60,371 nt of DNA from an uncultured Clostridia bacterium (GTDB taxonomy: Bacteria > Bacillota > Clostridia > Oscillospirales > Ruminococcaceae). This document shows positions 4,190-58,414 of this stretch, piece by piece (position 1 is the stretch's first letter; each line of letters opens with the position of its first letter). The notes beneath the pieces were generated by a model. That model saw only the letters and a list, made by a program, of their open reading frames with translations. It had not been told where the DNA came from and searched no databases. The position numbers were made by a program, and so were the translations under genes. The stretch covers positions 1-60,371 of the forward strand of contig CANQFZ010000007.1 in assembly GCA_947600065.1 (NCBI GenBank), given 5' to 3'.

Positions 4190-4909
4190 TTATGCGTAAC
4201 GGCGGCGTTCGATAACGCGTATCGTCAGAAAGTTGAACACTACCGTTATGCTCAGAAGAAATACCGTGTTTTTGAGGCTGAATATCCCCTGAGTAAACTC
4301 GCTGTACTTATAATAAACAGAGAGAGAATTTACTATCCCCGCGAGCGTATCATTCGAGATATAATTTGAGATAATGTCAAACATGCATATCACGATATTA
4401 AGACCTATACTTCCTATAGCCGCTATCATCTGGCTTTCGGTAAGAGATGAAATGAAGATACCTACAGATATAAACAGCATACCAATAAGCACAAGACCCG
4501 TATAATGTCCCCAGAACATTGCCCATTCAAATCGGCTGTCCGCAGCTGAAACTGCAAATGACAGAAAGACCGCATATATTATCAGGACAATGCTCGCGCA
4601 AAAGAAAACAAAAAACGCTCCCAGAAACTTTCCCGCGACTATCCCGAAAAGGCTGACGGGGCTTGTAAGAGTTAGCTGGTCGGTTTTCTGGCGCTTGTCG
4701 TCGGCTATAGTTCTCATTGTAAGTACGGGTATCAATATAACGTTTATGAAAAACATCATCTGGAAAACTCCGCCCATAGCCGAGCTCCCGATGCTTAGAC
4801 AATTAAGCCACAGAAACAATCCCGAAAATCCGCAGAATACCGCAAGGAAAACATATCCGAGCGGAGAAGTGAAATATGCTCTTATCTCGCGTTTCATTAT
4901 CGCAAGCAT
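4190..4909 (-). CDS. ABC-2 type transporter permease (GldF-like)
   Basis: The 239-aa membrane protein has six predicted hydrophobic segments and an MxAIMKREIRAYFTSPLGYVF opening typical of ABC-2 permeases of the GldF/NosY type. Its ATG overlaps the ATPase stop by one base (TAATG), and the ATPase C-terminus supplies the GGAGGTGGAG ribosome binding site. It should form the membrane pore of the transporter powered by the neighbouring ATPase. Confidence 0.9.
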   Translation of the reverse strand: MLAIMKREIRAYFTSPLGYVFLAVFCGFSGLFLWLNCLSIGSSAMGGVFQMMFFINVILIPVLTMRTIADDKRQKTDQLTLTSPVSLFGIVAGKFLGAFFVFFCASIVLIIYAVFLSFAVSAADSRFEWAMFWGHYTGLVLIGMLFISVGIFISSLTESQMIAAIGSIGLNIVICMFDIISNYISNDTLAGIVNSLSVYYKYSEFTQGIFSLKNTVFLLSITVVFNFLTIRVIERRRYA

Positions 4910-36812: not shown

Positions 36813-36872
36813 GACGACAGAATTTTTGAGTTGCCGCCTGTCAGCTAGTGCGGATTGTCGGAGGAAAACGAT

Positions 36873-42800: not shown

Positions 42801-44096
42801 ATAGAGTTCAATGCTCCGGGTTTATACACGTTTACGGTAACCGAAAGTTTGACGAAAGAAACGGGCGGTATAAGCATAAACTACGGAGAAGTAACGCTTA
42901 CAGTGAAGGTAACGAGCGACAACAACGGCACATTGACAGTCGAAAGCGTCACGGCCGACAAAGACGGTATAGTAAGTCCTTTTGTATACACTTCTGCGGG
43001 AAATGTTAAGCTGAACTTTATAAACACCTACAGCGAAACGGGAAATTTCCGACTTTACCTCACAAAGACGCTTAAGGGAAGAACATGGACGGACGAAGAA
43101 TTCACCTTTGCCGTTACTCCCGATCCCGATACTTTAAAGGCAATAAATAGCGGACAACTCAAAGTTCCCGAAAGTTGGGGAGAAATTAAAGACGGAAAAT
43201 ATACCGTGATTATCAAAAACGATGATGATAACTCAACGAACGTTACAGGAGAACTAAAAACTTCGCCTTGGACGACAAGAAAACTTGATTTGGGAGAGCT
43301 TAGTATAACCACTGCGGGAACGACAGGCGGGAAATACGGTTTTACAATTGAGGAAAAAGCAAGCGAAAATCTCACTTGCGCTCAGCCGAGCATATACCTA
43401 ACAATAAACGCTTTTACCGATGAGAGCAACACAGGTAAACTCAAATTCGCGGCGGCGACATATGCTACTGTAAGCGCTGACTCGCCGCCTATTACAGAAG
43501 GCACAAGCGACATTACGCTTCCGTTTACAAACGCGGACACAAGGCTTGGAACAATAACGGTGACTAAGGTCGTAAGAGATCAGCCTGCGGACGAAAAGTT
43601 CACGTTTACGCTGACATTAAAAGCGCCAACAGACAACAATCTTCTTTTAGTGATTGATGAGCTTGTAATTACTATTAGCGGCGGTAAAATCACGAAAGAA
43701 TTTGACACAAGTTCCACTGACGGAACATATTCCATGACGTTTGAGTTAGGAAACGAAGATGCTCTTAAAATTGAGAATGTTCCTTTCGGCACGGAATATG
43801 CGGTCACGGAAAAAGATTACAAAGGCTTTCACCTACAGGAAGTCAAGGACAAAGATGGCAAAGCTCTTACGTTGTCCTCTGACGGAAAGACAGTAACCAG
43901 CAAGATAACAACCGAAAACAACAATGTTGTTCTTGAGTTTGTAAACTCGCGGTTCTATGATATGCCGTTTACGGGCGGAGCGGGCGTTCACCCATGGGTA
44001 ATACTAGGAATAATGCTTATGGTTCTCCCGCCGACTATTTATCTGTTTTACAGGAAAAGGCGAAAACGAGAGTTCACCAAGTTCTTTAAAAAATAG
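36873..44096 (+). CDS. Giant modular sortase-anchored adhesin, probable pilus tip protein
   Basis: This 2407-aa protein starts at the ATG at 36873, 8 bp after GGAGG. An N-terminal signal segment (about 27-45) leads to a large N-terminal adhesin-like region (about 60-750), which contains a FlgD-like stretch FYWDGKDGNGEVIPKGKYNI near 485. SdrB/Cna-B/SpaA-like units follow (about 770-1240). At least four, probably five, isopeptide-type pilin modules follow (about 1290-2360). Each has a Lys in an I-K-x-x-x-G-R-x-W type strand (IRKQIVGRAW, ITKTINGRKW, LTKTLKGRTW) and a Glu in YTFTIRE / YTFTVTE / YGFTIEE. The C-terminus has MPFTGG (about 2364), a membrane segment and a basic tail. Size and first position suggest the tip. 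Confidence 0.88.
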   Translation: MQNRNNASNKKLHSHRSPWQRILASVLCVCLVVPMLNGVDLTWKMQSKSNIASAAEATAEQEARKAEYAKKFNLDDLKWNESTDDGKLNYGGSNRNYLDWRTKGTSFCGITQRNYIHVFAFEGDTICFGSNVDKSRLDISGDTLVSTNKDLQDEIEAKLGKGATADIVLIDLQGNRIPFDVITNGAGHIPNVQTEVLAKTMESMAGNSRTDKSGKEFSYTPLTYKVKETGVYTFEFHSTNTDSKNGTRGQGLRKEEDFYNGTVPDGITANEAQGMLVAAWDVSVFNEMDQKETGRVYADYLSLQNNGNTVETYYVLTTDSYIYRWDWNGNAPYTYGFFTDNRGLIDNVTGNTIYKSVKNLDNGGQDYTKFGAEYKYPTSINTETSKTFSIFFEMPNTDLEGHLYSKALQPDPAEDIKFIDKVTVEGKEVPGAYQGAGGYFSFKTGEATTATLTLDFTKLKDAEGNPVKEKYAPVSISRSVTPHSINYFYWDGKDGNGEVIPKGKYNIADLLTITTKAGEIHFPVTDMETASKGFTITRVSHIYDKNGNQLDTEGSILDATKSVIYYDDSAVYYGEAIGTTYDNTQADVKNDGSKYVLREHYKDMGSLKDDSTGKSNSVYFRYNNVKPGVNGNEYYIRSQCKDYVGGITALNDGVTGFTAEKFIRIGDHSHTTNQIQFYNKDGNFLKSGEFDSQKLMIDYLDSSKHPVGVTNSNGETSVTVGSTKEYYYGSVSDYGLVNYWTFIPSQPVTLSSDIGTIDIIEGNSFNLSCQVFFDNVVNGYYDQMVDEDTLLSGITLRLYRKTKDTSPIKGKTYYRKGTSSTKVNSSDKVNSKWDTITPVNSATVTNPQGSGLFELYSEAVTTIGGYVFSNIPYENGDVFAYEVVRPNNSYILTSGTQQGKSQTLSKGHIIGNNYVLYNYDKAAYGTEVQFITVGTGGIDPTKKSDGKSENDTRTISAVDVGYNYSTYKTITLQKTWDTPTEETPVPVFELSYVDNNNIAHVYEERPLAKIDKLSYSYPLLSDSIGGNKIKDWFVSAEYYIIGNTLYKQVFEYSPEAGDYSSFVGKCYKYKVELTDGNKDKVTNQFDLPDKNSDGVSDWNDLAGFAEEDWELSSASTYHAVLDRIIGTQEINISITNSTNSGIIEVLKYTGAFEDNNFLQGATFRVYTTINSETEITLEQVQEKIDSGKNEDLQWLSEHQVGSSTTRTNGRVTFAGLDPNKHYIVREVYSPAGYRFMEALYMVHPKGCTKHKLAEGASDVEKEKWNMQNFSFNEEGYVQAPIANIPANGDMAIRKQIVGRAWNSEDSFSFDLQFWNGNDKLSFKENEYNYLGAIEISEDEYRYFTNAGEGDNLNATLKAFIEAINNSTDDIIVNYLSDYAKNVISINGTKDIEESLVDTKQSVSMVVNAETDEDGNPVEENPEDAILNTSKDEGTENKKQTVDPHPFPAAGTYTFTIRENVPSNTGTMIYTGRVYTLEVVVTRVLDPKEEEGTSIRLDNSYLKAEVNQIYYQDPTTDGAKYPDNYGPKQIYAGVAPTFTNEYYVQPAKQSTNYAIEKQFSGRMDEFGNLLKDWLESDKFTIKIEGADDITKEALLNGNIFIGGLNETGSYSETKTLVFKNDGVYDSKDKLLSKVDENHLFRFDELDFRNLAFPVEWVFSESKGKYNKDDVVPKNDAEDRNVVLYVDEANAKEYGVDVGNYFVENVNAELNKNNLYPVTSRTQNIVYTLMISEEKGDIKGVTYDETKYKMVITLKNALNVGTTRPTEAVTDGIIDEIEISLYSMKGAEEDLKAYCKTDQHVVTKFEDWSNPEKYFASYTTSSGHTATYAVYYVTAGGEIREARITESGSSKKYEVFYSNNWHEITASNFDDYLGYGVTFIIKREEHSATETHAMPFNNTYTETAKWTPKITKTINGRKWLNTDSFTFTIEATSWPGYDGEHETGDYKLHEPKITDKDIDVAYADLTTGGTTAEAAMSEIEFNAPGLYTFTVTESLTKETGGISINYGEVTLTVKVTSDNNGTLTVESVTADKDGIVSPFVYTSAGNVKLNFINTYSETGNFRLYLTKTLKGRTWTDEEFTFAVTPDPDTLKAINSGQLKVPESWGEIKDGKYTVIIKNDDDNSTNVTGELKTSPWTTRKLDLGELSITTAGTTGGKYGFTIEEKASENLTCAQPSIYLTINAFTDESNTGKLKFAAATYATVSADSPPITEGTSDITLPFTNADTRLGTITVTKVVRDQPADEKFTFTLTLKAPTDNNLLLVIDELVITISGGKITKEFDTSSTDGTYSMTFELGNEDALKIENVPFGTEYAVTEKDYKGFHLQEVKDKDGKALTLSSDGKTVTSKITTENNNVVLEFVNSRFYDMPFTGGAGVHPWVILGIMLMVLPPTIYLFYRKRRKREFTKFFKK

Positions 44097-44129
44097 TAAA
44101 ATCAAATGATTTTAAGGAAGGAGTTTTTT

Positions 44130-46106
44130 ATGAATACTTCAACAAAACATTTTTTACCTCGGATAATAAGCGCAGTTATTGCGGTGCTGCTGGCGCTTAC
44201 GGTGGCTGTGCCCGCAATGGGGGCGGCGGCTTCGCCCTTGCCACCGTCTGATAATCTTACGATAACCATTCACAACAATACTGGTCTGCCTGTTATGAAA
44301 GCGGGGATGTTTGATGTATATCAGCTTTTTACGGGCGTTGTCAATGACGTACATGAATCAGAAGAAGATGACGAATGGGACGATACATGGGAAGATTACA
44401 CCCTTGCTAATATCAAATGGGGCAAGAGCCTTGAAGACGGTCATGAAACTTTGCTTACAACTCTTAAAGCTTTAGAGGAAACGGACTATGCTTGGGCTTA
44501 TGATGATACAAAGAATGTATTTGAAGATGTATCTACTGCGGCTGATTTGGCAAACGTTCTTGCAGAACATGGCACTACCACGGAATTTATGCAGGGATTT
44601 GCTAAAATAATGAAAACAACTAAAGGCGTTTTAACTCCGCTTGAAAAGGGCACTGATTACACGGAAACATTAGACACTAAATCGACTGATGATGGCGCTG
44701 ATGATACGCTTTCTTATAAAGTTAATGCTCCCGGCTATTATATGTTTGCAGAGCCGTCAAAGCATACTGCTGATGATGACGCTGAATCCGAATATATCAT
44801 AGCTGTTCTCGGAAGTCAGTCGATTTATCTGAAGGCTTCTATACCTACCGTTGAAAAATGGATAAATGCAGTTGGAGATACAAAGGGAACATCTGCAGAT
44901 ATTACCGATACAATAACGTTTGTTATTGAAGGTACTCTCCCTAAGAACTATACTGACTTTGTAGATGGTTATGAGTATATATTCCATGATTATCTTTCCG
45001 ACGCATTCACTATTACAGAAGGTACTGTAGTTATTACTATTACAACAGGCACAGATACGTTTACACTTAAAGCTGACCAATATTTTATAGAATCTCCGAT
45101 TGGAACAGTTACTGACGAATGTACAAAAGAATTTCGTATCGGAAAAAAGGGAGAGAAAACTACTGACGGATCTGTTTATTATGACCTAATGGGTTTGAAT
45201 GGCGAAACCGACGATAAAGGTAACACAATCAAAATAGATTCGTCTTCAAAAATTTCAGTTGAATATAAAGTAACCCTTAACGAAAAAGCAAAAATGGGTC
45301 AAGACGGCAAAGATAATAAAAGTAGTGTTATTCTCCAGTATTCAAACGATCCTAACGACGAACTGAATAAGACAAATAAGACACATTCGAGCGCTGTCTA
45401 TGTATATACTTATGGTCTTGATTTGAAGAAAGTCGGAAGTAATGCACCCGACACTGGACTTGCGGGAGCGGACTTTGTACTCAAAAACGATGAAGGTCAA
45501 TACGCTCAATTTATGGATCAAGAAATTGATGGCGTTACATATCGCCGCTTTAATGGTTGGGTAGATGCTGATACCGTTATTGATTTAATCGATTCATATG
45601 ATGAAGCAAAAGACGCTTATGACAAGGCTCCAACCGCTAGCGCTTCGGCTGCGAAAGAAACTCTTGACGCGGCAGCAGCGGCAATGGAAAACTATCTGCT
45701 TACATCAGATTCTGACGGTAAAATCTATGTAAAAGGCATTGACAACGATACATATTCTCTTGTCGAAGTTATAACTCCTGCGGGTTATAATACAATGGCT
45801 GACTTTGAATTTACAATTGACGAAGATATAAACACGACAAACGGACAGCTTACACAATTTACATATCAGTCCGATACAACCACTGATGTAAAGATATATA
45901 GTTCTTCAAGTGAATCCGGTGTATTTAATAACGGTCTTATCCCCGATACGCTGACAAACATAAAAGCTCCCCTGCTTCCCTTTACGGGCGGTATAGGAAC
46001 AGTTATATTCTATGTTCTCGGCGGAGCGCTTATTGCGGGAGCTATAGTGTACATCGTTATTATTGCTAAAAAGCGCAACAAAGAAACCGAAAACTCTGAT
46101 AAATGA
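44130..46106 (+). CDS. Major pilin (isopeptide-forming, SpaA/FimA-like)
   Basis: This 658-aa pilin starts at 44130 after AAGGAG. It has a signal peptide (about 10-40), an N-terminal domain, a fimbrial D2-like domain (VEKWINAVGDTKGTSADITDTITFVIEGTLP, about 245-440), the conserved VYTYGLDLKKVG junction that begins a SpaA-like domain (GADFVLKNDEGQ ... TYSLVEVITPAGYNTM), and a C-terminal LPFTGG sorting signal with membrane anchor and basic tail. Such domains form internal Lys-Asn/Asp bonds. It is the probable shaft subunit polymerised by the following class C sortases. A T-rich codon choice in its second half differs slightly from neighbours. Confidence 0.93.
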   Translation: MNTSTKHFLPRIISAVIAVLLALTVAVPAMGAAASPLPPSDNLTITIHNNTGLPVMKAGMFDVYQLFTGVVNDVHESEEDDEWDDTWEDYTLANIKWGKSLEDGHETLLTTLKALEETDYAWAYDDTKNVFEDVSTAADLANVLAEHGTTTEFMQGFAKIMKTTKGVLTPLEKGTDYTETLDTKSTDDGADDTLSYKVNAPGYYMFAEPSKHTADDDAESEYIIAVLGSQSIYLKASIPTVEKWINAVGDTKGTSADITDTITFVIEGTLPKNYTDFVDGYEYIFHDYLSDAFTITEGTVVITITTGTDTFTLKADQYFIESPIGTVTDECTKEFRIGKKGEKTTDGSVYYDLMGLNGETDDKGNTIKIDSSSKISVEYKVTLNEKAKMGQDGKDNKSSVILQYSNDPNDELNKTNKTHSSAVYVYTYGLDLKKVGSNAPDTGLAGADFVLKNDEGQYAQFMDQEIDGVTYRRFNGWVDADTVIDLIDSYDEAKDAYDKAPTASASAAKETLDAAAAAMENYLLTSDSDGKIYVKGIDNDTYSLVEVITPAGYNTMADFEFTIDEDINTTNGQLTQFTYQSDTTTDVKIYSSSSESGVFNNGLIPDTLTNIKAPLLPFTGGIGTVIFYVLGGALIAGAIVYIVIIAKKRNKETENSDK

Positions 46107-46112
46107 TCCGTG

Positions 46113-46144
46113 CGGTCGGGACGGCGGCTTGCCGTCCCGCACGC
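46113..46144 (+). promoter_or_regulatory. Stable hairpin between major pilin and sortase genes
   Basis: A perfect 9-bp GC-rich stem (CGGGACGGC / GCCGTCCCG, 46117-46125 and 46131-46139) with flanking GTGCG / GCAC pairing. There is no T-run. It may stabilise the pilin transcript or lower sortase expression. Confidence 0.65.
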
Positions 46145-46162
46145 GGGGTTATGTAGAAACAT

Positions 46163-47029
46163 ATGGGAAAAACCGCAAAACCGAAAAGTAAAAAACATAC
46201 CGCGGTTTCAGCCGTAATTCTGACGCTTGTTCTTCTTACGGGCATTGCGCTGCTGCTGTATCCGACTGTAGCGGATTATATAAATTCACTCGACTACAGA
46301 AAGGATATCGAAAAGTATCAGGACGACGTTAAAAAACTTGACGACACGACAAGGCAGAATATGCTCAAAGAATCGGAAGAATGGAACATAAGACTTGCAG
46401 AGAAATCGGAGCTTATGGGGCTGCTTACAAGCAAGGAACACACGACCTATAACAGCCTTTTGGACCCTTCGGATACGGGCATTATAGGTTATATAGAAAT
46501 TGAAAAGCTGAAAATTTACCTTCCTATCTACCACGGAACGGAAGAACCCGTGCTTCAGAGCGGCATAGGACACCTCGAAGGTTCGTCACTCCCGATCGGC
46601 GGAAAAGGAACTCATTCGCTCTTATCGGGGCACAGCGGTCTTCCCTCCTCAAAGCTGTTCAGCAACATAGACCAGCTTGAAAAGGGAGATACGTTTGTTA
46701 TCCATGTTCTCGGGGAAGTATTGACATACAGAGTTGAAAGCTCGGTGGTGGTGCTTCCCGAAGCTGCCGAAAAGCAGGAGTTTTATCCCGACCGCGATAT
46801 TTGCACGCTTATGACCTGCACACCATACGGGGTTAATACTCACCGTCTTCTTGTGCAGGGAGTGAGGGTCGAAACCGTTGAGGAAGAAAAGCCCGAAACG
46901 CCTGTTGAAGAAGTAATTCCCGAAGAAGAAATGCCCGTTATACTTTGGGTGGCAATTTTCGGTATTACCGCGGTAATTATTGCCGTGGTGATAATTCTTC
47001 TTGTACGGCACAAAAAGCGGCGGAAATGA
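46163..47029 (+). CDS. Class C-like pilus sortase 1
   Basis: This 288-aa transpeptidase has N-terminal (about 13-33) and C-terminal (about 258-282) membrane segments, as class C enzymes do. Catalytic residues are His in SGHSGLPSSKLF, Cys in CTLMTCTPYG and Arg in NTHRLLVQG. It should link pilin subunits by joining the cleaved Thr to a pilin Lys. A class C lid motif is not obvious; LLDPSDTG is the nearest. The upstream ribosome binding site is weak. Confidence 0.93.
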   Translation: MGKTAKPKSKKHTAVSAVILTLVLLTGIALLLYPTVADYINSLDYRKDIEKYQDDVKKLDDTTRQNMLKESEEWNIRLAEKSELMGLLTSKEHTTYNSLLDPSDTGIIGYIEIEKLKIYLPIYHGTEEPVLQSGIGHLEGSSLPIGGKGTHSLLSGHSGLPSSKLFSNIDQLEKGDTFVIHVLGEVLTYRVESSVVVLPEAAEKQEFYPDRDICTLMTCTPYGVNTHRLLVQGVRVETVEEEKPETPVEEVIPEEEMPVILWVAIFGITAVIIAVVIILLVRHKKRRK

Positions 47030-47036
47030 GGCGGAA

Positions 47037-47912
47037 ATGAAAAAAGAAAAATCAAATTCGCCACTGCCAATTATAATAATCGTTGTTATGATGGTAACGG
47101 GTCTGGGGCTGCTGCTTTATCCGACAATTGCCGATATGATAAACGATTCTCAGAACCAAAAGGCAATATCCGAATATAAGGACAATGTTCAGTCGCTCGG
47201 AGAAAGCGAATATCAGAAGATACTCGATGCGCTGAGCGATTATAACAAAGACCGTGCGGAGCATACGCCTTATCTTACAAAGCTTACAGCCGAAGAAAGA
47301 GCTGTTTATGAAAGCCTTTTGAACGACGGTGGAAACGGTCTTATAGGATATATCGAAGTTGAAAAATCGAACGTATATCTCGGCATTTACCACGGCACAG
47401 ACGAAAGTGTTTTACAGACGGGGGTAGGGCATCTTGAATCGTCGAGCCTGCCAGCAAAGGGAGAAAGCGTCCATGTTATGCTTACGGGACACAGCGGACT
47501 TCCGTCGGCGCGTCTGTTTACCGACCTTGACAAACTGAAACCGGGCGATAATTTCACCCTGCACATACTTAATGAAACGCTTGTTTATGAAGTTCAGAGC
47601 GTAAAGAGAGTACTCCCCGAAGAGCTTGAAACTCTAAGGATAGAAGAAGGTCAGGAGCTTTGCACTCTTATAACCTGCACTCCATACGGCGTGAATACTC
47701 ACAGACTTACGGTAACGGGAAAAAGGATAGATACTCCCGAAAAGACCGAGGACCTCTCCCCTGCCGAACAGGCGATAACTTCCACTTGGAATTGGTGGTT
47801 TGTATTTCTGCCTGCAGTGATATTTATACTGATAACAGCGGGCGTTGTTATACTGCTGTATTTCAGAAATAAAAAGAAGAAAGCCCCTTTTAACAAGGAG
47901 GATAATAAATGA
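47037..47912 (+). CDS. Class C-like pilus sortase 2
   Basis: This 291-aa paralog of the preceding sortase has membrane segments at about 9-28 and 257-278, catalytic His in TGHSGLPSARLF, Cys in CTLITCTPYG and Arg in NTHRLTVTG. It starts 8 bp after sortase 1 and overlaps the basal pilin gene by four bases (ATGA). Paired class C sortases usually divide work between shaft polymerisation and ancillary pilin addition. Confidence 0.93.
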   Translation: MKKEKSNSPLPIIIIVVMMVTGLGLLLYPTIADMINDSQNQKAISEYKDNVQSLGESEYQKILDALSDYNKDRAEHTPYLTKLTAEERAVYESLLNDGGNGLIGYIEVEKSNVYLGIYHGTDESVLQTGVGHLESSSLPAKGESVHVMLTGHSGLPSARLFTDLDKLKPGDNFTLHILNETLVYEVQSVKRVLPEELETLRIEEGQELCTLITCTPYGVNTHRLTVTGKRIDTPEKTEDLSPAEQAITSTWNWWFVFLPAVIFILITAGVVILLYFRNKKKKAPFNKEDNK

Positions 47913-48835
47913 AAAAACGCCTCATATCCATATTATTATGCATGACATTGTTTTTAATAAACATTGTTCCGACATCTGCCGAAGCTGTCGGAAGGCTATA
48001 TGTTATGCTTAAATATGAAGATATGCCAGTAGCAGGAGCGTCTTTTCAGATCTACAAAGCCGCAGAAATGACCGAGGACGGTATGACCCTCGCCGAGCAG
48101 TTTTCAAACTATCGCGTAAGTATGATGCAAGACCCGAACAGCGACGAATGGAAAGCGCTTGCTTCTACGCTTGCGGTATATGCGGCGGCTGATAAATTAG
48201 AGCCTTTTGATGAACAACAGACTGATGAAAGCGGTATGCTTTGTTTTGAAGGACTTTCGGACGGAGTTTATCTGGTAACGGGTTCGCCCGTTATTCAAAA
48301 CGACATACTTATACTGCCGCAAGCGGTATTGGTGACTGTTCCCTATTCAAACGATTTGGGAGAAACTGATTATGATGTAGTTGCTTCGCCTAAATATATA
48401 TCGCGCGATATAAACGGCGGCGTTCTGGAAAGGCGTGCGCTGAAGATATGGGACGATGAAAACAACACTCAGAGCCGCCCGCAGGAAATAACCGTTCAGC
48501 TTCTCTGCGATGGCGAAGTCTATGACGAGAAAGTTCTGAACGAAGAATGCGACTGGGGATATACCTGGAATGGACTTGACCCGAAGCATAACTGGCAGAT
48601 AACGGAAAAGGAAGTTCCCGATGATTATACCGTAAAAATAACGCAGCAAGGCACAACCTTTACCATTACAAACACAAACGACACCCCTGCTCCCCCGCCG
48701 ACAAAGCCCGATGATCCCGATCTTCCGTACACAGGAATGTTATGGCTGCCTGTTCCGATACTTATAGCATTCGGCTCGGTCACACTGTTTATCGGAATAC
48801 TGCTTATTATCAAGAAAGAAGATACAGATGAGTAA
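47909..48835 (+). CDS. Ancillary (basal-type) pilin with Cna-B domain
   Basis: This 308-aa protein has a signal peptide (about 1-25), an N-terminal pilin-like domain (about 28-160), and a Cna-B domain (about 170-258) with LKIWDDENN, QLLCDGEVY and ITEKEVPDDY, placing Lys and Glu for an isopeptide bond. A Pro-rich linker (PAPPPTKPDDPD) and LPYTG follow, then a membrane segment. A Pro-rich tail before the sorting signal is typical of basal pilins that anchor the fibre to the wall. Confidence 0.9.
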   Translation: MKKRLISILLCMTLFLINIVPTSAEAVGRLYVMLKYEDMPVAGASFQIYKAAEMTEDGMTLAEQFSNYRVSMMQDPNSDEWKALASTLAVYAAADKLEPFDEQQTDESGMLCFEGLSDGVYLVTGSPVIQNDILILPQAVLVTVPYSNDLGETDYDVVASPKYISRDINGGVLERRALKIWDDENNTQSRPQEITVQLLCDGEVYDEKVLNEECDWGYTWNGLDPKHNWQITEKEVPDDYTVKITQQGTTFTITNTNDTPAPPPTKPDDPDLPYTGMLWLPVPILIAFGSVTLFIGILLIIKKEDTDE

Positions 48836-49451
48836 ACGCAGAAAGCTCGGCATAATTTTTATACTGATAGGAAGCGTGTTTATTCTCTGCGCAGCGGGAC
48901 TTGTTATTTACAACATCTGGGACGACAACAGAGCGCAGGAGTCGGTAAAGAGCGTACTCCAAGAACTAAAGCTTCCGGAAAAGACGGTTGAAGCAGAAGA
49001 TGAGATAAGCGACGATCCCGAAGTGACGGTTCCCGACTATCTGCTTGACCCAAACCGCGAAATGCCGACGATAACTGTAGACGGTTACAAATACATAGGA
49101 AAAGTTACTGTTTCGTCGATAGATCTTGAACTGCCCGTTATGGACAAATGGGATTATGTACGGCTGAAAAAATCGCCCTGTCGGTATTCGGGTTCGGCGT
49201 ATCTCAATAACTTGATAATCTGCGCGCACAATTACGCCTCGGTTTTTGGCAGGCTAAAAAACCTTTCGGCGGGAGACTTAGTGACCTTTACCGACGCTGA
49301 AGGCAATGTATTCAGATATGAAGTAAAGCAGCTCGAAACCCTTTCGCCAAGCCAAGTTAGGGACATGAAAAGCGGTGACTGGGATCTCACTCTGTTTACC
49401 TGTACGGTTGGAGCGCTGAAGCGTGTAGCGGTCAGATGTGAAAGAATTTAG
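48828..49451 (+). CDS. Third sortase, class uncertain (B/D-like)
   Basis: This 207-aa enzyme has one N-terminal membrane segment (about 8-28), a spacer, and a sortase domain with catalytic His in ICAHNY, Cys in LTLFTCTVG and Arg in RVAVRCERI. It lacks the C-terminal membrane segment of class C. It overlaps the basal pilin gene by 8 bp. It may cut LPYTG of the basal pilin and attach the finished pilus to peptidoglycan. Confidence 0.85.
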   Translation: MSKRRKLGIIFILIGSVFILCAAGLVIYNIWDDNRAQESVKSVLQELKLPEKTVEAEDEISDDPEVTVPDYLLDPNREMPTITVDGYKYIGKVTVSSIDLELPVMDKWDYVRLKKSPCRYSGSAYLNNLIICAHNYASVFGRLKNLSAGDLVTFTDAEGNVFRYEVKQLETLSPSQVRDMKSGDWDLTLFTCTVGALKRVAVRCERI

Positions 49452-49478: not shown

Positions 49479-49546
49479 GCCCTTGACAAACCGATTTTTC
49501 TATGATATAATATTATCGTTGGTTTTTCGGTGTATGTCAAGGGCTG
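49479..49546. repeat. Inverted repeat enclosing a promoter
   Basis: AGCCCTTGACA (49479-49489) and TGTCAAGGGCT (49536-49546) are a perfect 11-bp inverted repeat. The left arm contains the -35 of the promoter that leads into the tRNA-like array. Confidence 0.85.
49484..49512 (+). promoter_or_regulatory. Consensus promoter of the tRNA-like array
   Basis: TTGACA (49484-49489), 17 bp, TATAAT (49507-49512) with TGA before it. No gene follows until the tRNA array, so the product is probably an RNA. Confidence 0.85.
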
Positions 49547-49551
49547 TTGTC

Positions 49552-49605
49552 AGTTGGCAGTATACAGTGTACGTACGCATTATGCGCTTCGCGCAAAACG
49601 CTACG
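49552..49605. repeat. GGCAGTATACAGTGTA repeat, second locus
   Basis: TTGGCAGTATACAGTGTA followed by a GCGCTTCGCGC hairpin resembles the left end of the element at 32192. No gene is visible. Confidence 0.55.
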
Positions 49606-49698
49606 GCAGATAACTCTGTGTGCAGTAGAAAAGTAAGCCGAAGCGATTTGATATGTTGTTATAGCTCGTTTGAGTTATCACTGAAAACAATTTAATAT

Positions 49699-49764
49699 GC
49701 TGGTGTAGCTCAGTCGCGTAGACGTATCAAGCAGAGCTTGATACTGCGCATTCGTAATGCGCAG
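49699..49764 (+). repeat. tRNA-Thr-like 5' half with hairpin insert, copy 1
   Basis: 66 nt matching the first part of the tRNA-Thr at 50243: acceptor 5' strand, D arm and the whole anticodon arm with CGT. A net 21-nt insert places a hairpin GTATCAAG-CAGAG-CTTGATAC (49724-49744) between D and anticodon arms. The 3' half of the tRNA is missing. It is identical over 66 nt to copy 3. Confidence 0.88.
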
Positions 49765-49771
49765 GCGGGTT

Positions 49772-49806
49772 GGCAGTTGACAGTATACAGTGTAAAGTGT
49801 ACAGTA
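49772..49806. repeat. GGCAGTTGACAGTATACAGTG repeat, third locus
   Basis: This repeat replaces the 3' half of tRNA-like copy 1 and is related to the pieces at 32192 and 49552. Confidence 0.55.
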
Positions 49807-49835
49807 AAAAATCGTAAACCAAAACAATTTAATAG

Positions 49836-49901
49836 ACTGGTGTAGCTCAGTCACGTAGACATATCAAGCAGAGCTTGATACTGCGCATTCGTAATGCGCA
49901 G
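49836..49901 (+). repeat. tRNA-Thr-like 5' half with hairpin insert, copy 2
   Basis: 66 nt, 63 identical to copies 1 and 3. The hairpin and the CGT anticodon arm are kept; the flanks differ strongly from copy 1 and resemble those of copy 3. Confidence 0.87.
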
Positions 49902-50041
49902 ATCGTGTGCTACTAATAAGGAGATGCGGCAACGGGTTGCGTGTCTTGTAAATTTTTACAATTCAACGGCATGGGTATGACGAACGTTCTGTTCGGAGTT
50001 CCAAAACGGCAGTTTCGGTTGCCAAAACAATTTAAAAATTC

Positions 50042-50107
50042 GCTGGTGTAGCTCAGTCGCGTAGACGTATCAAGCAGAGCTTGATACTGCGCATTCGTAA
50101 TGCGCAG
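50042..50107 (+). repeat. tRNA-Thr-like 5' half with hairpin insert, copy 3
   Basis: 66 nt identical to copy 1. It is followed by a ~135-nt spacer similar to that after copy 2. The spacer holds a small hairpin (GGCAA-CTTTG-TTTGCC) whose pairing is kept in copy 2 by a different base (GGCAG / TTGCC). Confidence 0.88.
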
Positions 50108-50242
50108 GTCGTGTGATGTCTATAAGGAGATACGGCGGCGGTCGCGGTCTTGCAAATTTTTACAGTTAAATAGCGCGGGTTTGATGAACGTTCCGTTCAG
50201 CGTTCCCAAATGGCAACTTTGTTTGCCAAAACAATTTAATAC

Positions 50243-50318
50243 GCTGGTGTAGCTCAGTCGGTAGAGCAGCGCATTCGTAATGCGCAGGTCGGGGGTTCGA
50301 GTCCGTTCACCAGCTCCA
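50243..50318 (+). tRNA. tRNA-Thr (anticodon CGT)
   Basis: A 76-nt cloverleaf: acceptor GCTGGTG / CACCAGC, D stem GCTC / GAGC, anticodon stem GCGCA / TGCGC with loop TTCGTAA (CGT at 50276-50278), T loop TTCGAGT, and an encoded CCA. It reads ACG codons. The T stem GGGGG / CCGTT has a G-G mismatch in its centre and two G-T pairs, so it is weak for a functional tRNA. Confidence 0.9.
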
Positions 50319-50326
50319 AAAATATG

Positions 50327-50357
50327 AACAGCTTGATAATCCTATCAAGCTGTTTTT
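50327..50357. terminator. Bidirectional terminator after tRNA-Thr
   Basis: A perfect 12-bp stem (AACAGCTTGATA / TATCAAGCTGTT), loop ATCC, then T5. On the - strand it ends the HEPN-like gene. The words CTTGATA and TATCAAG are the same as in the tRNA-like inserts. Confidence 0.9.
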
Positions 50358-50359
50358 AA

Positions 50360-51673
50360 TTAAGACAAAGGAATTTCTATAATATCTCCTTCATTAAGGT
50401 AATGTTCTTTTAAATAACTATCAGGAATTTGAATGCACTTTTCATCACCATTTTCATCTTTTACAATCACACTGCACATTTGTTCCTGCCCATCAGGAAT
50501 TCCTTCACAACCGTAATCTTCCTCAAAGATTTGTAATATATGATATTTTTTCTTTTCTTCGATAGTAATTTCTTCTTTATTTTGAGTAACAGTATTTGGT
50601 AGTTCTAACATATTTGCATTGAACAATTTTGTAAATTTATTTTCATCATTAAAGTAAGTATTGTCTATCATTGTTTGTAATTTTTCATACACTTGATTAA
50701 CAGTATTAAATATGTTTGCTATTCCTAAATCAAATGCATTGCAAATACCTTTAACCATTTGTAAAATCGTCTCACCTACAACAGATAGAACAGAAAAATA
50801 ATCTTGGGGAGCATATAATTTCCTTTCTATCTCATATACAGCATGATTTAATGTTTTATTTACACTTCTTAATTCTGCTTTGGCGCTTCTAAAATAGCTA
50901 TCGGACATTTTATGATGATGCATAGTATCATTCCTGTATTTTCTAACTACATCTATCTTATCCTTTAAAGTCAACAAATCCTTATTATCTGCAAACAACT
51001 TACTCCAAATAGATTGTTTCCTTATTTTTTTAATTATATCAATAATTTCACTTTTTGAAAGTTTCTCCATATTTTCTTCTGAAAGTTCACTATCAATCAC
51101 TTCATCCAAATTTTCTCGTTTCTCATCAAAAAGATACTTTACAATATCAGAGTAGTTCAAATATTCAAATGCTGATTCTGTTAACTTTTCATCACTACCA
51201 CCATTTGTAATATCTTTTAATTTTGATAACAGATCATTTGGGAATGTCTTTGAAACCCAGTCGTAACCAAAAGCTTTAACAGTAGTAAGATACATTACCT
51301 GCCTTAGTCTGCGTTCAAAAACTCCCAAAGGCTTCATTAACCTACAACAAAAAGAAAGACTTGCTTCATCATATGTACATATTATTGAATAATCTTTTCT
51401 ATAATCTCCACCACAAATTTTATCTCTAACGTTGCTAAGTATAGTTGCAGCTTTAGCTTCACTATATTTACACTCAATTTTTAAATATACAGTATCTGAT
51501 TCATCTTTTGTAATTTTATATTGCAAAAAATGAGTGGTATTATTTTCACTATAACAAATACATTCGTCATTTGTATCCGGAAAGATAAGCTTTAGCATTT
51601 CCTTAATTTTGGGAAGAATAAATTTCTTTTCTAAAGCTTTTTGTTTCCATATTATCATAAGATTAGTTTCCAT
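50360..51673 (-). CDS. HEPN-like protein beside a Type I RM system
   Basis: This 437-aa soluble protein is AT-rich beside its neighbours. A first part (about 60-110) has a strand-rich KIECKYSEAKAATILSNVRD stretch. A helical middle part carries VRKYRNDTMHHHKM (about 258-271), which fits the R-x4-6-H motif of HEPN RNases, flanked by helices before and after. The C-terminal ~60 residues look like a small beta domain ending in LNEGDIIEIPLS. It has its own promoter and lies downstream of hsdR in the same direction. I infer a defence role, possibly RNA cleavage; the family was not recognised. Confidence 0.6.
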   Translation of the reverse strand: METNLMIIWKQKALEKKFILPKIKEMLKLIFPDTNDECICYSENNTTHFLQYKITKDESDTVYLKIECKYSEAKAATILSNVRDKICGGDYRKDYSIICTYDEASLSFCCRLMKPLGVFERRLRQVMYLTTVKAFGYDWVSKTFPNDLLSKLKDITNGGSDEKLTESAFEYLNYSDIVKYLFDEKRENLDEVIDSELSEENMEKLSKSEIIDIIKKIRKQSIWSKLFADNKDLLTLKDKIDVVRKYRNDTMHHHKMSDSYFRSAKAELRSVNKTLNHAVYEIERKLYAPQDYFSVLSVVGETILQMVKGICNAFDLGIANIFNTVNQVYEKLQTMIDNTYFNDENKFTKLFNANMLELPNTVTQNKEEITIEEKKKYHILQIFEEDYGCEGIPDGQEQMCSVIVKDENGDEKCIQIPDSYLKEHYLNEGDIIEIPLS

Positions 51674-51806: not shown

Positions 51807-54803
51807 TTATTTATGTTCTTGAAGCGGGGCATCATATGGTTTACCCTCTTTGTTATAAGTCAAATTGAAAACAAGGTCAGACAGCCATTTCTTAAAAGAA
51901 AGGTTGTCCTGAAATTGTTTGAACAGTTCCATATTGTCTGCCATAATAGAAAAGATGACCTGTTGCAGAGCACGTTCACTTTCAAGTCTTGCGCTCTGCT
52001 CATCAGAATTTCGCATTGCATTCTGATATTTTTCGTCACGCGATACCATTGCGGGTATTTCAAGAATTTGCCTGCGCACGTTATCTGCATCATTCCAGTT
52101 GATGCTTCCAAACATATCATTGAAATCGGACAAAATAACGGAAAGCAGATCCATCTCCGGCTCAACAATATGACCGATTTTGCCGGCAGGAACAGGATCA
52201 ACCTCTGAGTCGGAATCCTCCAACTTAATCGACATGGACTCACGAGCCTCATTGCGATAACTTTCCAAATCAATAGCCTCAAGAATACCCTGCGACAGAT
52301 CGTCATCACGCGGAGAGGGCAGTTTCGGTATCAGCAGGTTCAAAAAAATAGAAAGCCGCTCCCAGCCTGCATTTCCATAAGGTAAGATTGCACCGAGAAA
52401 ACCATATGTACGGCAGAACGCTTTTGCCGCGCTCTTAAACTTAATCTGATCGTCCGTTTCAAGCTGATTATAAATGGCTGTGCAGGCATCAAGCGTAGGA
52501 TCGAGTTTATCACGGTCAGCTCCGTTCAAATACAAATTAACAACCCGTTCAACATCTTCTTCGGAATAAACTTGATATTCCTCCATCGTTGTCACAAGGT
52601 CATACAACTTGTTCGGATCTGTTTCGCCGGACAGAATTGTGGTGCGGTAATAGCGTGAGAAAGACTCCTCGATTATTTCCGGCTTGTTTGCAAAATCCAA
52701 AACAAAAGTGTCATACTTTTTGGGGTGACAGCGATTTAACCTCGAAAGCGTCTGTACCGCCTTTATGTCATAGAGCATTTTATCAACATACATCGTATGA
52801 AGGAGCGGTTCGTCAAACCCCGTCTGGAACATATCTGCAACAATAAGTAAACGGTACGGATCTGACTTAAAGGTCTTAGGTATCTTTGCATCAGGAAATC
52901 CGTTCAAGCTTGCCGATGTCAGCGGCTCCTGTCCGTTATATTTGCATTCGCCTGAGAACGCAATAATAGTTTTATAAGGACTGCGTCTTTCGGAAAGGCA
53001 CTTGTTTATTGCATAGTAATATTCTATGCAACGCGGGATACTTGAAGTTACAACCATAGCACGAGCCTGACCGCCGATCTTGCCCTTGGCAATGACCTGC
53101 TCATGGAAATGCTCAACCATCATAGCGGCTTTCTTACCAATGGTGTAGCTGTTGCTCTCCACAAAACTGCGAAGTTTTTTCTGAGCACGTTTCTTGTCAA
53201 ACATCGGATCGTCCTCGACAGTTTTCATCAATCTGTAAAAGCTGTCAATAGGCGTATAATTCTGAAGAACGTCAAGAATAAATCCTTCTTGAATAGCCTG
53301 TTTCATCGTGTACACATGGAACGGCTTATGCTGCAGCTCACCATTTTCATTCAATATAGGATTTCCTTTTTCATCTGCAACAAGTGTGCCGAAAGTTTCC
53401 AGCGTCTTATTTTTAGGCGTGGCAGTGAACGCAAAATAACTTGCATTATTAAGAAGTTTCCTGCCCTCCATCATTGCGTTTATCTTGTCCTCGTTATCCA
53501 TCTCATCATCGGAAACAAGTCCTGACAAGGCAAGGTTCATCTGTGCAGAGTTTCTGCCGCTCTGCCCTGAATGAGCCTCATCTATTATAATTGCAAATTT
53601 GTTGTTGATATGGTCTGTCCCAAGCTGCGGCACAATATACGGAAACTTTTCAATCGTAGTCACAATAATGCGCTTGCCTTCTGTTATGGCTTTAGTGAGA
53701 TCACCGGAGTGTTCTGCCCATGCCACGGTATTGCTGACCTGCATAAATTGCTTGATTGTGTCCCTGATTTGCTTATCCAAAATGCGTCGGTCGGTGACTA
53801 CAATAACGGAATCAAGCATCGGACGCCCGTCCTGCTCAAGACCTATCAACTGATGAGCAAGCCATGCAATAGAGTTGGACTTTCCGCTGCCTGCACTGTG
53901 CTGTATCAGATATTTCTGCCCTACGCCATTTCTCTTTACGTCGGCAAGCAGTTTTGTGACAACGTCCAACTGATGAAAACGCGGGAATATCTGCTTTTCC
54001 TTTTTCTTCTTTGTATCTTCATCTACTTCAACAATCACTTGCGCGTAATTCTCAATGATAAGCGTGAGCTTTTCCTTTGTCAGAATGTCTTTCCAAAGGT
54101 AATCGGTCATAATTCCGTTCGGATTTGGCGGATTGCCTGCACCATCGTTGTATCCTTTATCGAAAGGCAGAAACCAGCTATCCTTGCCGGCCAGTTTCGT
54201 GCAGAACTTTATACGGGCATCGTCAACGGCGAAATGCACCATGCAGCGTTTGAAAGAGAACAAAAGATCCCGTGGATCGCGATCTGTCTTATACTGGTCA
54301 ACGGCATCGTCCGTGTTCTGCTTTGTCAATTGATTTTTCAGTTCAAAGGTGACAACGGGAAGTCCGTTTATAAACACGCACATATCCAGAGCGAGCTTAG
54401 CAGCGTCCTGCGAATAGCGCAACTGGCGTGTAACGCTAAAAATATTCTTCTCCCACATCTCTTTTGCTTTTGTATTATTCTCGGTCGGCGTAAGGTAGAA
54501 CATGATAAGGTCAGCAGGATACACCTTAATTCCGTTGCGGAGGACATCAACTATGCCTCGTTTGGCAAGTTCTCCCTGCAGGCGGTTCAAAAATTGACGT
54601 TTTTTCTGCTCGGATTTGAACACACCTAACTTGTCCATCTCTGAGGGCTGAGTATCCTTTAAAAAGCGTAACAGCCTTGTTTCATCAATGGCAAATTCCT
54701 TGTTATAATCGGCATTTTTACCTTCTTCGTAACCGTTATGCTCCACGAGCCATTTTACAATAAGGGTTTCAAAGCCGTTTTCTTTTGTGTTTGTGAAATT
54801 CAT
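51807..54803 (-). CDS. hsdR: Type I restriction enzyme, R subunit
   Basis: This 998-aa subunit translocates and cleaves unmodified DNA. The N-terminal nuclease region contains VFINGLPVVTFELKNQL, the family's nuclease motif (the E-x-K of motif III), about residues 145-165. The helicase core has Walker A HSAGSGKSNSIAWL, motif II IIDEAHSGQSG, SYFAFTATPKNKT and VQTLSRLNRCHP. The start at 54803 follows CAGGAG and lies one base after the hsdS stop. The length is normal. Confidence 0.96.
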   Translation of the reverse strand: MNFTNTKENGFETLIVKWLVEHNGYEEGKNADYNKEFAIDETRLLRFLKDTQPSEMDKLGVFKSEQKKRQFLNRLQGELAKRGIVDVLRNGIKVYPADLIMFYLTPTENNTKAKEMWEKNIFSVTRQLRYSQDAAKLALDMCVFINGLPVVTFELKNQLTKQNTDDAVDQYKTDRDPRDLLFSFKRCMVHFAVDDARIKFCTKLAGKDSWFLPFDKGYNDGAGNPPNPNGIMTDYLWKDILTKEKLTLIIENYAQVIVEVDEDTKKKKEKQIFPRFHQLDVVTKLLADVKRNGVGQKYLIQHSAGSGKSNSIAWLAHQLIGLEQDGRPMLDSVIVVTDRRILDKQIRDTIKQFMQVSNTVAWAEHSGDLTKAITEGKRIIVTTIEKFPYIVPQLGTDHINNKFAIIIDEAHSGQSGRNSAQMNLALSGLVSDDEMDNEDKINAMMEGRKLLNNASYFAFTATPKNKTLETFGTLVADEKGNPILNENGELQHKPFHVYTMKQAIQEGFILDVLQNYTPIDSFYRLMKTVEDDPMFDKKRAQKKLRSFVESNSYTIGKKAAMMVEHFHEQVIAKGKIGGQARAMVVTSSIPRCIEYYYAINKCLSERRSPYKTIIAFSGECKYNGQEPLTSASLNGFPDAKIPKTFKSDPYRLLIVADMFQTGFDEPLLHTMYVDKMLYDIKAVQTLSRLNRCHPKKYDTFVLDFANKPEIIEESFSRYYRTTILSGETDPNKLYDLVTTMEEYQVYSEEDVERVVNLYLNGADRDKLDPTLDACTAIYNQLETDDQIKFKSAAKAFCRTYGFLGAILPYGNAGWERLSIFLNLLIPKLPSPRDDDLSQGILEAIDLESYRNEARESMSIKLEDSDSEVDPVPAGKIGHIVEPEMDLLSVILSDFNDMFGSINWNDADNVRRQILEIPAMVSRDEKYQNAMRNSDEQSARLESERALQQVIFSIMADNMELFKQFQDNLSFKKWLSDLVFNLTYNKEGKPYDAPLQEHK

Positions 54804-54804
54804 A

Positions 54805-56157
54805 TTATTTCTCCTGTTCTGCGATATCTTCATTTTCGGTTTCTTCCGTGTTGTTTTCGGTTTCTTCCTCAACGTATTCATAGTCCGGAATTTTGATGTT
54901 GCGAACATCGATTTTGCCGGTTACGGCATCGGAAATAAGGCGAGTTTTACACTCATGCAAACGCTCAATTTGTTGGGTAAGTTTTTGAATAGCATCTTCA
55001 TATCGAGGAATAGCAGACTTAATATAGTCAACAATCACCTTCTGTTCGTCAGCAGGTGGAACAAAGAACGGAATTTCTTTCATTTTATCCATCTGTAAAT
55101 CCCACTGTCCGACTCTGATACCATCAGATGCCTGTGCAAAAAAATTTACATATACTTTACTGCGGATAGCATAATGAAAATACTCAAGGTTTTCAAATTC
55201 AACATCAAAAATAAAGTACGCTGGACTAACTATACCAGTGTAGGGCGATATTCCATACGAGCCTTGCCATGCTTTCATTTTATTCATAGCAAACTGCCCT
55301 TCTCGAACCATTTTATAATTTGAAAGGTCATCAGGGATATAGTTGTGATTAGCTTCTTTATCATCAACATCTCGAATAATTACACCTTGCTCACGAACAA
55401 CAGAAAGCAACGGAAGATCAGGTCTGTTTTTCACGCTTACAGAATGAAGAATTTGACGTAGTTTTACAATACTCCAATGCGCAGGAATTGCGCCAAGCCA
55501 AAAAGCACCACTCTCTTTCATTGTAACAGAGGAATCAAGCCCCCTTATAACGACATGGGAAATAAAAGCCTTCTTCAACTCCTCCAGCCGTGCAATTTCT
55601 TTCCACCTGATATTGATAAGCCTATTGATTTCCGAAACCTTCCAATCCAGAAAGCGCACGATCTGGTCTTGCTCGTCACGGGGCGGGACGGGGATATAAT
55701 GATTTTTAAGCTTTTTATAATCTATATTTTGTCCTTCCCTTATTCCTGTTACACACATTTGGAGCAATTCAATAAACCGCTGTGATTTTGCAAGATATTT
55801 AAAATAGTTTGAGATAACTAAGCCGTTATTTACCATAATTGTATATGCAGGGCTGATAATGCCTTGATAGTATGCATATTCTATACCGCCCTGAAATGAA
55901 CGTAAGCTAATGACAAAATCACCTTTTCGTACAAGTTTCAGCAAATGTAGATCTTTCTGTGCCTCAACAGTCCTGTTTCCATAAACAGCTTTCGGAACCA
56001 CGCCCATATTTTGCGAAGAAACAAGCAGTGTCTCATTTGGAAATCCTTTTTCAACGCGTTCTTGAAATAAATATTTGATTTTTATAATTTCCCAATTTAC
56101 AGGAGCTAAAGGAATCCAAAGTTGCTCGGTTTTTTTATACTCTGGGTATGCTTTCAT
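54805..56157 (-). CDS. hsdS: Type I restriction enzyme, S (specificity) subunit
   Basis: This 450-aa subunit sets target sequence for methylation and cleavage. Two target-recognition domains (about 10-155 and 215-365) are each followed by a conserved helix (PPRDEQDQIVRFLDWKVSEINRLI and PPADEQKVIVDYIKSAIPRYEDAIQKL) that spans between half sites. The tail is acidic and Glu/Asn-rich. Its ATG overlaps the hsdM stop by four bases. No second hsdS gene or recombination repeats were seen in the window. Confidence 0.95.
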   Translation of the reverse strand: MKAYPEYKKTEQLWIPLAPVNWEIIKIKYLFQERVEKGFPNETLLVSSQNMGVVPKAVYGNRTVEAQKDLHLLKLVRKGDFVISLRSFQGGIEYAYYQGIISPAYTIMVNNGLVISNYFKYLAKSQRFIELLQMCVTGIREGQNIDYKKLKNHYIPVPPRDEQDQIVRFLDWKVSEINRLINIRWKEIARLEELKKAFISHVVIRGLDSSVTMKESGAFWLGAIPAHWSIVKLRQILHSVSVKNRPDLPLLSVVREQGVIIRDVDDKEANHNYIPDDLSNYKMVREGQFAMNKMKAWQGSYGISPYTGIVSPAYFIFDVEFENLEYFHYAIRSKVYVNFFAQASDGIRVGQWDLQMDKMKEIPFFVPPADEQKVIVDYIKSAIPRYEDAIQKLTQQIERLHECKTRLISDAVTGKIDVRNIKIPDYEYVEEETENNTEETENEDIAEQEK

Positions 56158-58334: not shown

Positions 58335-58414
58335 AAACAATATTCCCTTTCTAAAACATTTTCTCTTTTTTTAACTCTTCAAACGAGTTGCATATATAGA
58401 ATATTCCATTTTTA

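Follow-up and report, generated by a model that had tools for sequence, protein, structure and literature searches.

Why should the gene of an intact tRNA be preceded by several partial copies of its own 5′ half? This question is raised by the window (the whole 60,371-nt stretch of DNA that was analysed), in which three tRNA-Thr(CGU) 5′-half modules are sited between a consensus promoter and the intact tRNA gene. The reading that we prefer, with a probability of roughly 40%, is that they are copies of a tRNA-derived repeat unit that is specific to the tRNA-Thr(CGU) leader and is retained as a tRNA mimic. The features of the array are as follows (positions in the window):

49483..49511, plus strand: promoter TTGACA-17-TATAAT with an extended −10, upstream of the array; like promoters precede the arrays of relatives
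49640..49672, plus strand: possible fourth copy, strongly decayed, leader and tRNA start (repeat of 70% identity)
49699..49765, plus strand: unit 1 module, hairpin-bearing tRNA-Thr 5′ half, called type B (sequence repeat comparison)
49766..49835, plus strand: unit 1 tail, displaced by a GTTGGCAGTTGACAGTATACAGTGTA-type repeat (repeat comparison)
49836..49901, plus strand: unit 2 module, type B, with 3 changes in 66 nt; base 1 is A in place of G
49902..49935, plus strand: unit 2 conserved tail core, GTGTGCTACTAATAAGGAGAT... (tail motif and alignment)
49936..50041, plus strand: unit 2 spacer, with a GGCAG-loop-TTGCC hairpin and the leader AACAATTTAA at its end
50042..50108, plus strand: unit 3 module, type B, equal to unit 1 across 66 nt
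50109..50142, plus strand: unit 3 conserved tail core, GTGTGATGTCTATAAGGAGATACGG... (tail motif and alignment)
50143..50242, plus strand: unit 3 spacer, two hairpin regions and the tRNA leader (repeat comparison, folding)
50243..50318, plus strand: intact tRNA-Thr, anticodon CGT (tRNA gene call, Rfam tRNA match)
50327..50354, no strand assigned: hairpin 3′ of the tRNA, probable terminator (sequence, simple terminator scan)

An earlier sequence-only reading had described three 66-nt modules copying the 5′ half of tRNA-Thr(CGT), and these are present, its copies beginning one base later. It was also right that the modules carry the exact anticodon arm (GCGCATTCGTAATGCGC, identical to that of the tRNA) and a 21-nt hairpin insert (GTATCAAG-CAGAG-CTTGATAC, which folds), that two of them are identical (copies 1 and 3, over 66 nt; E 1.1e-28 in a search of their own genome) and that the remaining one has three changes (copy 2, 97% over 65 nt, 3 differences in 66 nt). 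They lack the tRNA 3′ half; a search of the window that tolerated up to 6 substitutions found it once. Beyond the modules, the 66-nt query gave no further strong match elsewhere in its own genome; five weaker matches of about 17–23 nt were obtained, two of which are the tRNA itself. The sequence after modules 2 and 3 is related too (89% over 99 nt for module plus tail, 81% for the 93 nt that follow). Copies of the GTTGGCAGTTGACAGTATACAGTGTA-type repeat lie at 49546–49571 and 49769–49794, and this repeat likewise takes the place of the tail in unit 2 of locus L030 and unit 1 of L031, a locus that also contains stretches resembling the leader and tRNA start of 49640–49672.

The promoter, of the sigma-70 type, agrees with the consensus at 12/12 positions, with 17-nt spacing and the TG, so that the single strong promoter claimed ahead of the modules stands. 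The modules were further said to precede the real tRNA and a terminator; the order holds on the plus strand and the hairpin exists, but the simple terminator scan scored it on the minus strand only, which leaves a plus-strand terminator just plausible. In all, a promoter was found upstream of the array in 22/26 loci (L053, L104 and L203 start close to the edge of a contig, and no unit start was recognised in L063). Terminator-like sites on the plus strand were seen before the tRNA in L033 and L037, the other 24/26 loci having none. These two patterns make co-transcription of units and tRNA probable.

Immediately before the array, at 36855–49451, the window carries large surface-protein-like and sortase-like genes, named by eye; the last of this cluster (48828–49451) has a Sortase match in Pfam. 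Downstream, a 437-aa protein of unknown family is encoded at 50360–51673, beside a type I restriction system (HsdR 51807–54908, HsdS 54805–56157, HsdM 56154–58340). This protein contains the stretch RNDTMHHH, which we take to be of the R-N-x3-H kind of HEPN nucleases.

A unit consists of the tRNA 5′ half (5′ strand of the acceptor stem, D arm and anticodon arm, up to GGTCG) and a tail that is not tRNA sequence, composed of GTG, ten variable bases and AARGNGAY. A spacer follows, often with a CTTRCAAA-like stretch, and then the leader of the next copy. The extra hairpin of the sequence-only reading is not the defining feature, being absent from many copies and differing in sequence between lineages where it occurs. 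Type B is thus a variant, with its insert between the D and anticodon arms; other lineages have different hairpins at this site (GGGATATGCTTCGCAAATCCC and relatives within the genus, CCTGCTTCGCAGG in genome G721, TGTCCGAATAAATTCGGACA in G711). With a 66-nt type B query, nothing outside its own genome was matched at E 1e-5 in 197 family genomes, so the type B form is narrow. In G040, type B and type A units share the same tail and spacer save one base, which indicates that modules and tails reassort. G032 (L041, reverse-complement 224–330) has a complete-looking tRNA-Thr in which a type B 5′ half is joined to an intact 3′ half.

The start-to-start intervals of the fetched loci form two length groups. 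Ten loci from several genera have short intervals of 107–119 nt (L201 and L202, 107; L038 and L123, 113; L204, 117 and 117; L039, 118; L081, 118 and 118; L053, L055 and L113, 119). Outside this count stand L207, with 135 nt and a hairpin insert, and the first intervals of L055 (105 nt), L202 (153 nt) and L123 (213 nt), which follow degenerate copies. Long intervals of 137–206 nt, in which parts of the spacer form hairpins, occur in the window, L029, L030, L031, L032, L033, L034, L104 and L167. L038 and L039, with short intervals, belong to the genus of the window, and L167, with long ones, to another genus. In L037 (G004), the interval from unit to tRNA is 942 nt and contains other genes, namely a glyoxalase-family gene and a cysteine-rich small gene (890–1800). 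G029 has, ahead of the tRNA, the end of a cysteine-rich small gene of the G004 type and then a tail remnant.

Two checks had been proposed, namely that relatives should also have the modules and that these should occur only beside tRNA-Thr(CGT), and both were borne out in the genomes searched: every unit read precedes tRNA-Thr(CGU) or runs off its contig. A 200-nt unit query recovered related arrays within the genus and gave some match in 34/43 of its genomes, many of them to the tRNA anticodon arm only. The tail motif, with one mismatch allowed, was found in 12/43 genus genomes (23 matches, against 8 in the backward control) and was lacking in 31/43; 22 matches lie at the array, and the 23rd is plain DNA without a tRNA half. 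Arrays in these gut bacteria contain one to six units (six in G040, three in G041, two in G026, one in G042), and those of G033, G032, G036, G018 and G014 reach a contig end. Loci L042 to L047 have the tRNA without units. Only decayed remnants are kept in some genomes (L035, L048); the sequence-only reading had named such decay as evidence against itself, and it argues against every copy being functional.

For the wider search a tail pattern was adopted because the covariance model R1 could not tell units from true tRNAs, matching 388/394 order genomes; it did pick up one more unit, in G563. The strict motif AGGTCGTG-N10-AARGNGAY occurs in 12/396 genomes of the family, which is probably Ruminococcaceae, and, as tallied automatically, in 9/126 genera. 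On reading, units were recognised in 10 of these 12 genomes (G175 and G622 have none), all of them before tRNA-Thr(CGT) or cut by a contig end. In the order, 5/394 genomes matched, comprising the window's own unit and four non-units. The backward control was as frequent (about 17 matches against 15 forward in the family, about 10 against 5 in the order), so the counts alone prove nothing and units are recognised by context. Arrays that have decayed fully escape such a motif search. A scan of a genome collection for the 5′ half followed by GGTCGTG yielded 9 unit loci among 80 listed of 118 loci, the remainder being mostly ordinary tRNAs; the unit loci include Ruminococcus flavefaciens FD-1 (L123), Ruminococcus and Ruminiclostridium MAGs, and others. 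Phage origin was set aside, since none of the 33 + 2 viral-contig matches is a unit.

At gathering score, Rfam gave only tRNA in the window and the units. Ten units score 29.3–37.9 bits with RF00005, above its gathering score of 29, and below it fall the L081 units (28.6 and 28.2) and L113 (23.5); the three type B modules of the window have no Rfam tRNA match at gathering score. The units align to RF00005 minus the T-arm region and therefore differ from functional tRNAs, which form a full cloverleaf, T arm and acceptor stem included. Both units of L081 were annotated as tRNA-Thr by ARAGORN, and units may be miscounted as tRNAs in this way. Below threshold, Rfam gave a single match in the array, to IsrM on the minus strand, which was taken as chance at 16.7 bits (gathering score 376). 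A group II intron start (GTGYG after GGTC) was considered and set aside; the Rfam scans gave nothing but tRNA at gathering score.

In an alignment of unit tails (A2), GTG and A-A-x-G-x-G are invariant in 34/34 tails; 29 of these 34 rows come from the 200-nt-query and GGTCGTG searches, neither of which required AARGNGAY, but the GGTCGTG scan required GTG, the 200-nt query contained the window's own tail and the tail-extraction script required one of the G's. The 34 rows are 39 unit tails minus 4 duplicates and L055 at a contig end. Replaced or degenerate tails are absent from A2, among others those of unit 1 in the window, L031, L032, L104, L123 and L202 and of unit 2 in L030, and so is L167, with GGG in place of GTG. 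GTG is not universal, as the dropped L055 unit has ACA in its place and L123 unit 1 has TCG. Between genera the core of the tail is conserved and most of the spacer is not, which demands a reason, either an RNA or a recombination half-site. Pairing of the tail GUC with GAY is possible in 34/34 tails and hardly varies. The proposed tail stem pairs in 74.1% of cells, against 70.7% when shuffled, and a five-pair stem has 12 double-changed cells, against 4.3 in shuffles, while a stem slid by 3 columns is almost equally good; a pseudoknot or stem in the tail is thus suggestive only. Covariation in the D and anticodon stems of the units can be inherited from the tRNA.

The order of the copies bears on their origin. 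In 12/14 arrays, the copy nearest the promoter resembles the tRNA less than the last copy does. Scores were taken against the local tRNA, or against a reference in the 6/14 arrays whose contig ends before it, with unit ends set by hand; the window and L031 are orthologous. The exceptions are L081, where the two copies are equal, and L038, scored as reversed by the script although the sole difference is one base that the last copy lacks where the contig ends. Two arrays with a cut first copy were left unscored (L053 and the second contig of G742). Within arrays, the last copy present in L030 (copy 5) is less tRNA-like than copy 4, and copies 1 and 2 of the window score equally. The first unit begins 10–26 nt after the −10 box in six loci, with a gap of 41–212 nt in 16 others. 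In the unit-free loci L043 and L044, the tRNA itself starts 14 nt after the −10 box, whereas L042, L046 and L047, also unit-free, have long leaders as judged by eye. The similarity of the short gaps fits a first unit standing at the former position of the tRNA. The tail does not come from the sequence downstream of the tRNA, so that the first step required an insertion; plain tandem duplication can explain later changes in copy number, not the tail.

Two further lines of evidence for function were tried and rejected. Between the window and G041, divergence is 8/200 in the modules, 8/130 in the leader, 48/534 in coding DNA and 42/252 in the spacers, which compare different paralogous families; module divergence is not clearly below that of leader or coding DNA in these alignments, and low divergence was rejected as proof of selection. 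In six predicted transcripts, native acceptor pairing of the tRNA drops from about 1.0 to 0.00–0.32. Capture of the tRNA 3′ strand by the array was rejected as a specific effect, since shuffled leaders were at least as bad in 3–8/15 shuffles at 5 loci, and unit-free 240-nt leaders disturbed acceptor pairing in 5/6 loci.

How could such units have arisen and been retained? Their origin would resemble that of a displaced 5′ tRNA fragment, with an insertion at the variable loop and duplication of the 5′ half. New copies would join at the tRNA end, and older ones would be pushed upstream and decay. Promoter, units and tRNA would form one transcript, so that each tRNA may be made together with at least one tRNA-Thr look-alike. 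Without the tRNA 3′ half, these look-alikes could not be charged, although the CGU anticodon arm is kept. Intact copies might be kept by binding a reader of the tRNA-Thr anticodon arm; threonyl-tRNA synthetase (ThrRS) would be the first candidate, and the units might then tune ThrRS or tRNA supply. A more specific version, which we consider improbable, is that non-chargeable tandem mimics, made in the transcript of the tRNA and with a pseudoknot-like tail in place of the T and acceptor arms, titrate ThrRS or capture the tRNA 3′ half, copy number setting the supply of tRNA-Thr(CGU).

The same polarity and decay of copies would also be expected if the units were integration scars and nothing else, a possibility that we take seriously but hold with doubt: recombination at the anticodon or variable loop of the tRNA would leave 5′ fragments, the tail would be the other att half, and no RNA role would exist. 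Fragments of this kind are known: Islander counts 2083 anticodon-centred sites, and a 5′ fragment in 159/3919 islands (PMC4383910), and ssrA direct repeats are described as accumulating in Dehalococcoides (PMC3146451). Homology between the window and G041 ends directly after the tRNA 3′ end. In L063, a hybrid-looking anticodon arm adjoins an ORF with a weak integrase match (phrog_95, E 0.0022), for which no Pfam match was found and all NCBIfam matches were far below cut-off, and a tyrosine integrase gene lies elsewhere in that locus. In G742, a phage holin gene lies on a contig that abuts a unit tail. Against scars alone, the unit-to-tRNA intervals in the loci read are too small for a recombinase, the sole long one (942 nt) holding other genes; ten loci keep intervals of 107–119 nt, unlike remnants of independent deletions; 0/35 viral-contig matches are units; and no element accompanies the tail core, which is conserved across genera. 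Two observations stand beside these loci: the G742 junction (L270 and L211), where the contig with the phage holin and a ParE-like gene meets the unit tail at AGGTCGTGGG, contains a CTCATAACCCGA stretch of the kind found in tRNA-Met, and in L063 an abiF RNA (RF03085), barely above gathering score, lies on the minus strand at 4547–4583, downstream of the unit-bearing tRNA-Thr(CGT).

Reassortment of modules and tails, copy numbers from 1 to 6 and patchy loss would suit passive tandem duplication of one ancient truncated tRNA, through unequal crossing over and conversion from the tRNA, with neither function nor recombinase. We regard this as unlikely, because duplication alone cannot make a tail that is not tRNA downstream sequence, and because tail core and short unit length are conserved between genera. 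It is harder still to credit a decoy at the DNA or RNA level, whose spare anticodon arms would absorb integrases or soak up an anticodon nuclease. Foreign or inserted DNA does appear to interrupt unit anticodon arms in L063 and L123, and the RNDTMHHH stretch lies in the window's next downstream gene, beside the type I restriction system; yet four other array genomes (L277–L280, judged by ORF starts) have different genes downstream, the downstream protein was unmatched above the Pfam cut-off, in PADLOC and among solved structures, and a decoy would not need a conserved tail. None of the three readings first offered (mimic RNA, regulatory leader, integration scars) is proved; polarity favours a displacement-like origin, and retention is favoured by the conserved tail of non-tRNA sequence and by the narrow range of unit lengths. 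The locus would be either a tRNA gene's leader RNA that has gone unrecognised or a very clean record of the gain of displaced fragments without a resident integrase. Both readings can be tested in a culturable carrier, R. flavefaciens FD-1.

We found no prior description of the array in the open PMC literature, and compared it with five known systems. In E. coli tyrT, rtT repeats lie downstream of the tRNA and carry its 3′ end, whereas the array units lie upstream and carry the 5′ half; the rtT Rfam family had no match in the window, nor in permissive scans. An RNA of the rtT kind is released from the tRNA transcript during processing, and rtT-family loci in Actinobacillus are placed upstream of tRNA genes (PMC4986893). 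The array resembles Islander-class islands in having a 5′ fragment upstream of an intact tRNA, in the same orientation, with a break near the anticodon region; its units differ in measuring about 0.12–0.2 kb and lacking an integrase, and Islander rejects candidates below 2 kb or without an integrase (PMC4383910). An integrase with at least 2 kb between fragment and tRNA was not found in the fetched loci, where intervals are 105–213 nt and once 942 nt, with glyoxalase cargo. Accretion at ssrA in Dehalococcoides likewise places many pieces of a tRNA-like gene beside the intact gene, with the break in the T-loop, but those pieces are 3′ ends, and the islands that they flank are large and have a serine recombinase (PMC3146451). 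The tRNA-Other of Bacillus cereus is a tRNA-like element within a larger RNA, has no translation role and lies at an island, although its abstract does not mention tandem half-tRNAs or describe it as tRNA-Thr (PMC3399842). The E. coli thrS operator is a tRNA-Thr anticodon-arm mimic without an acceptor arm that is bound by ThrRS, and the array units carry the CGU anticodon arm exactly. The operator is an mRNA leader with a second anticodon-arm-like domain, whereas the array is a tRNA leader of tandem half-tRNAs with a tail (PMC9976931). As far as the five systems are described in these sources, none has this arrangement. The array is real, recurrent and unusual, a variant of tRNA-derived repeats at a tRNA locus: a single-locus repeat family of half a tRNA and a conserved tail, present in several genera and with a visible direction of growth.
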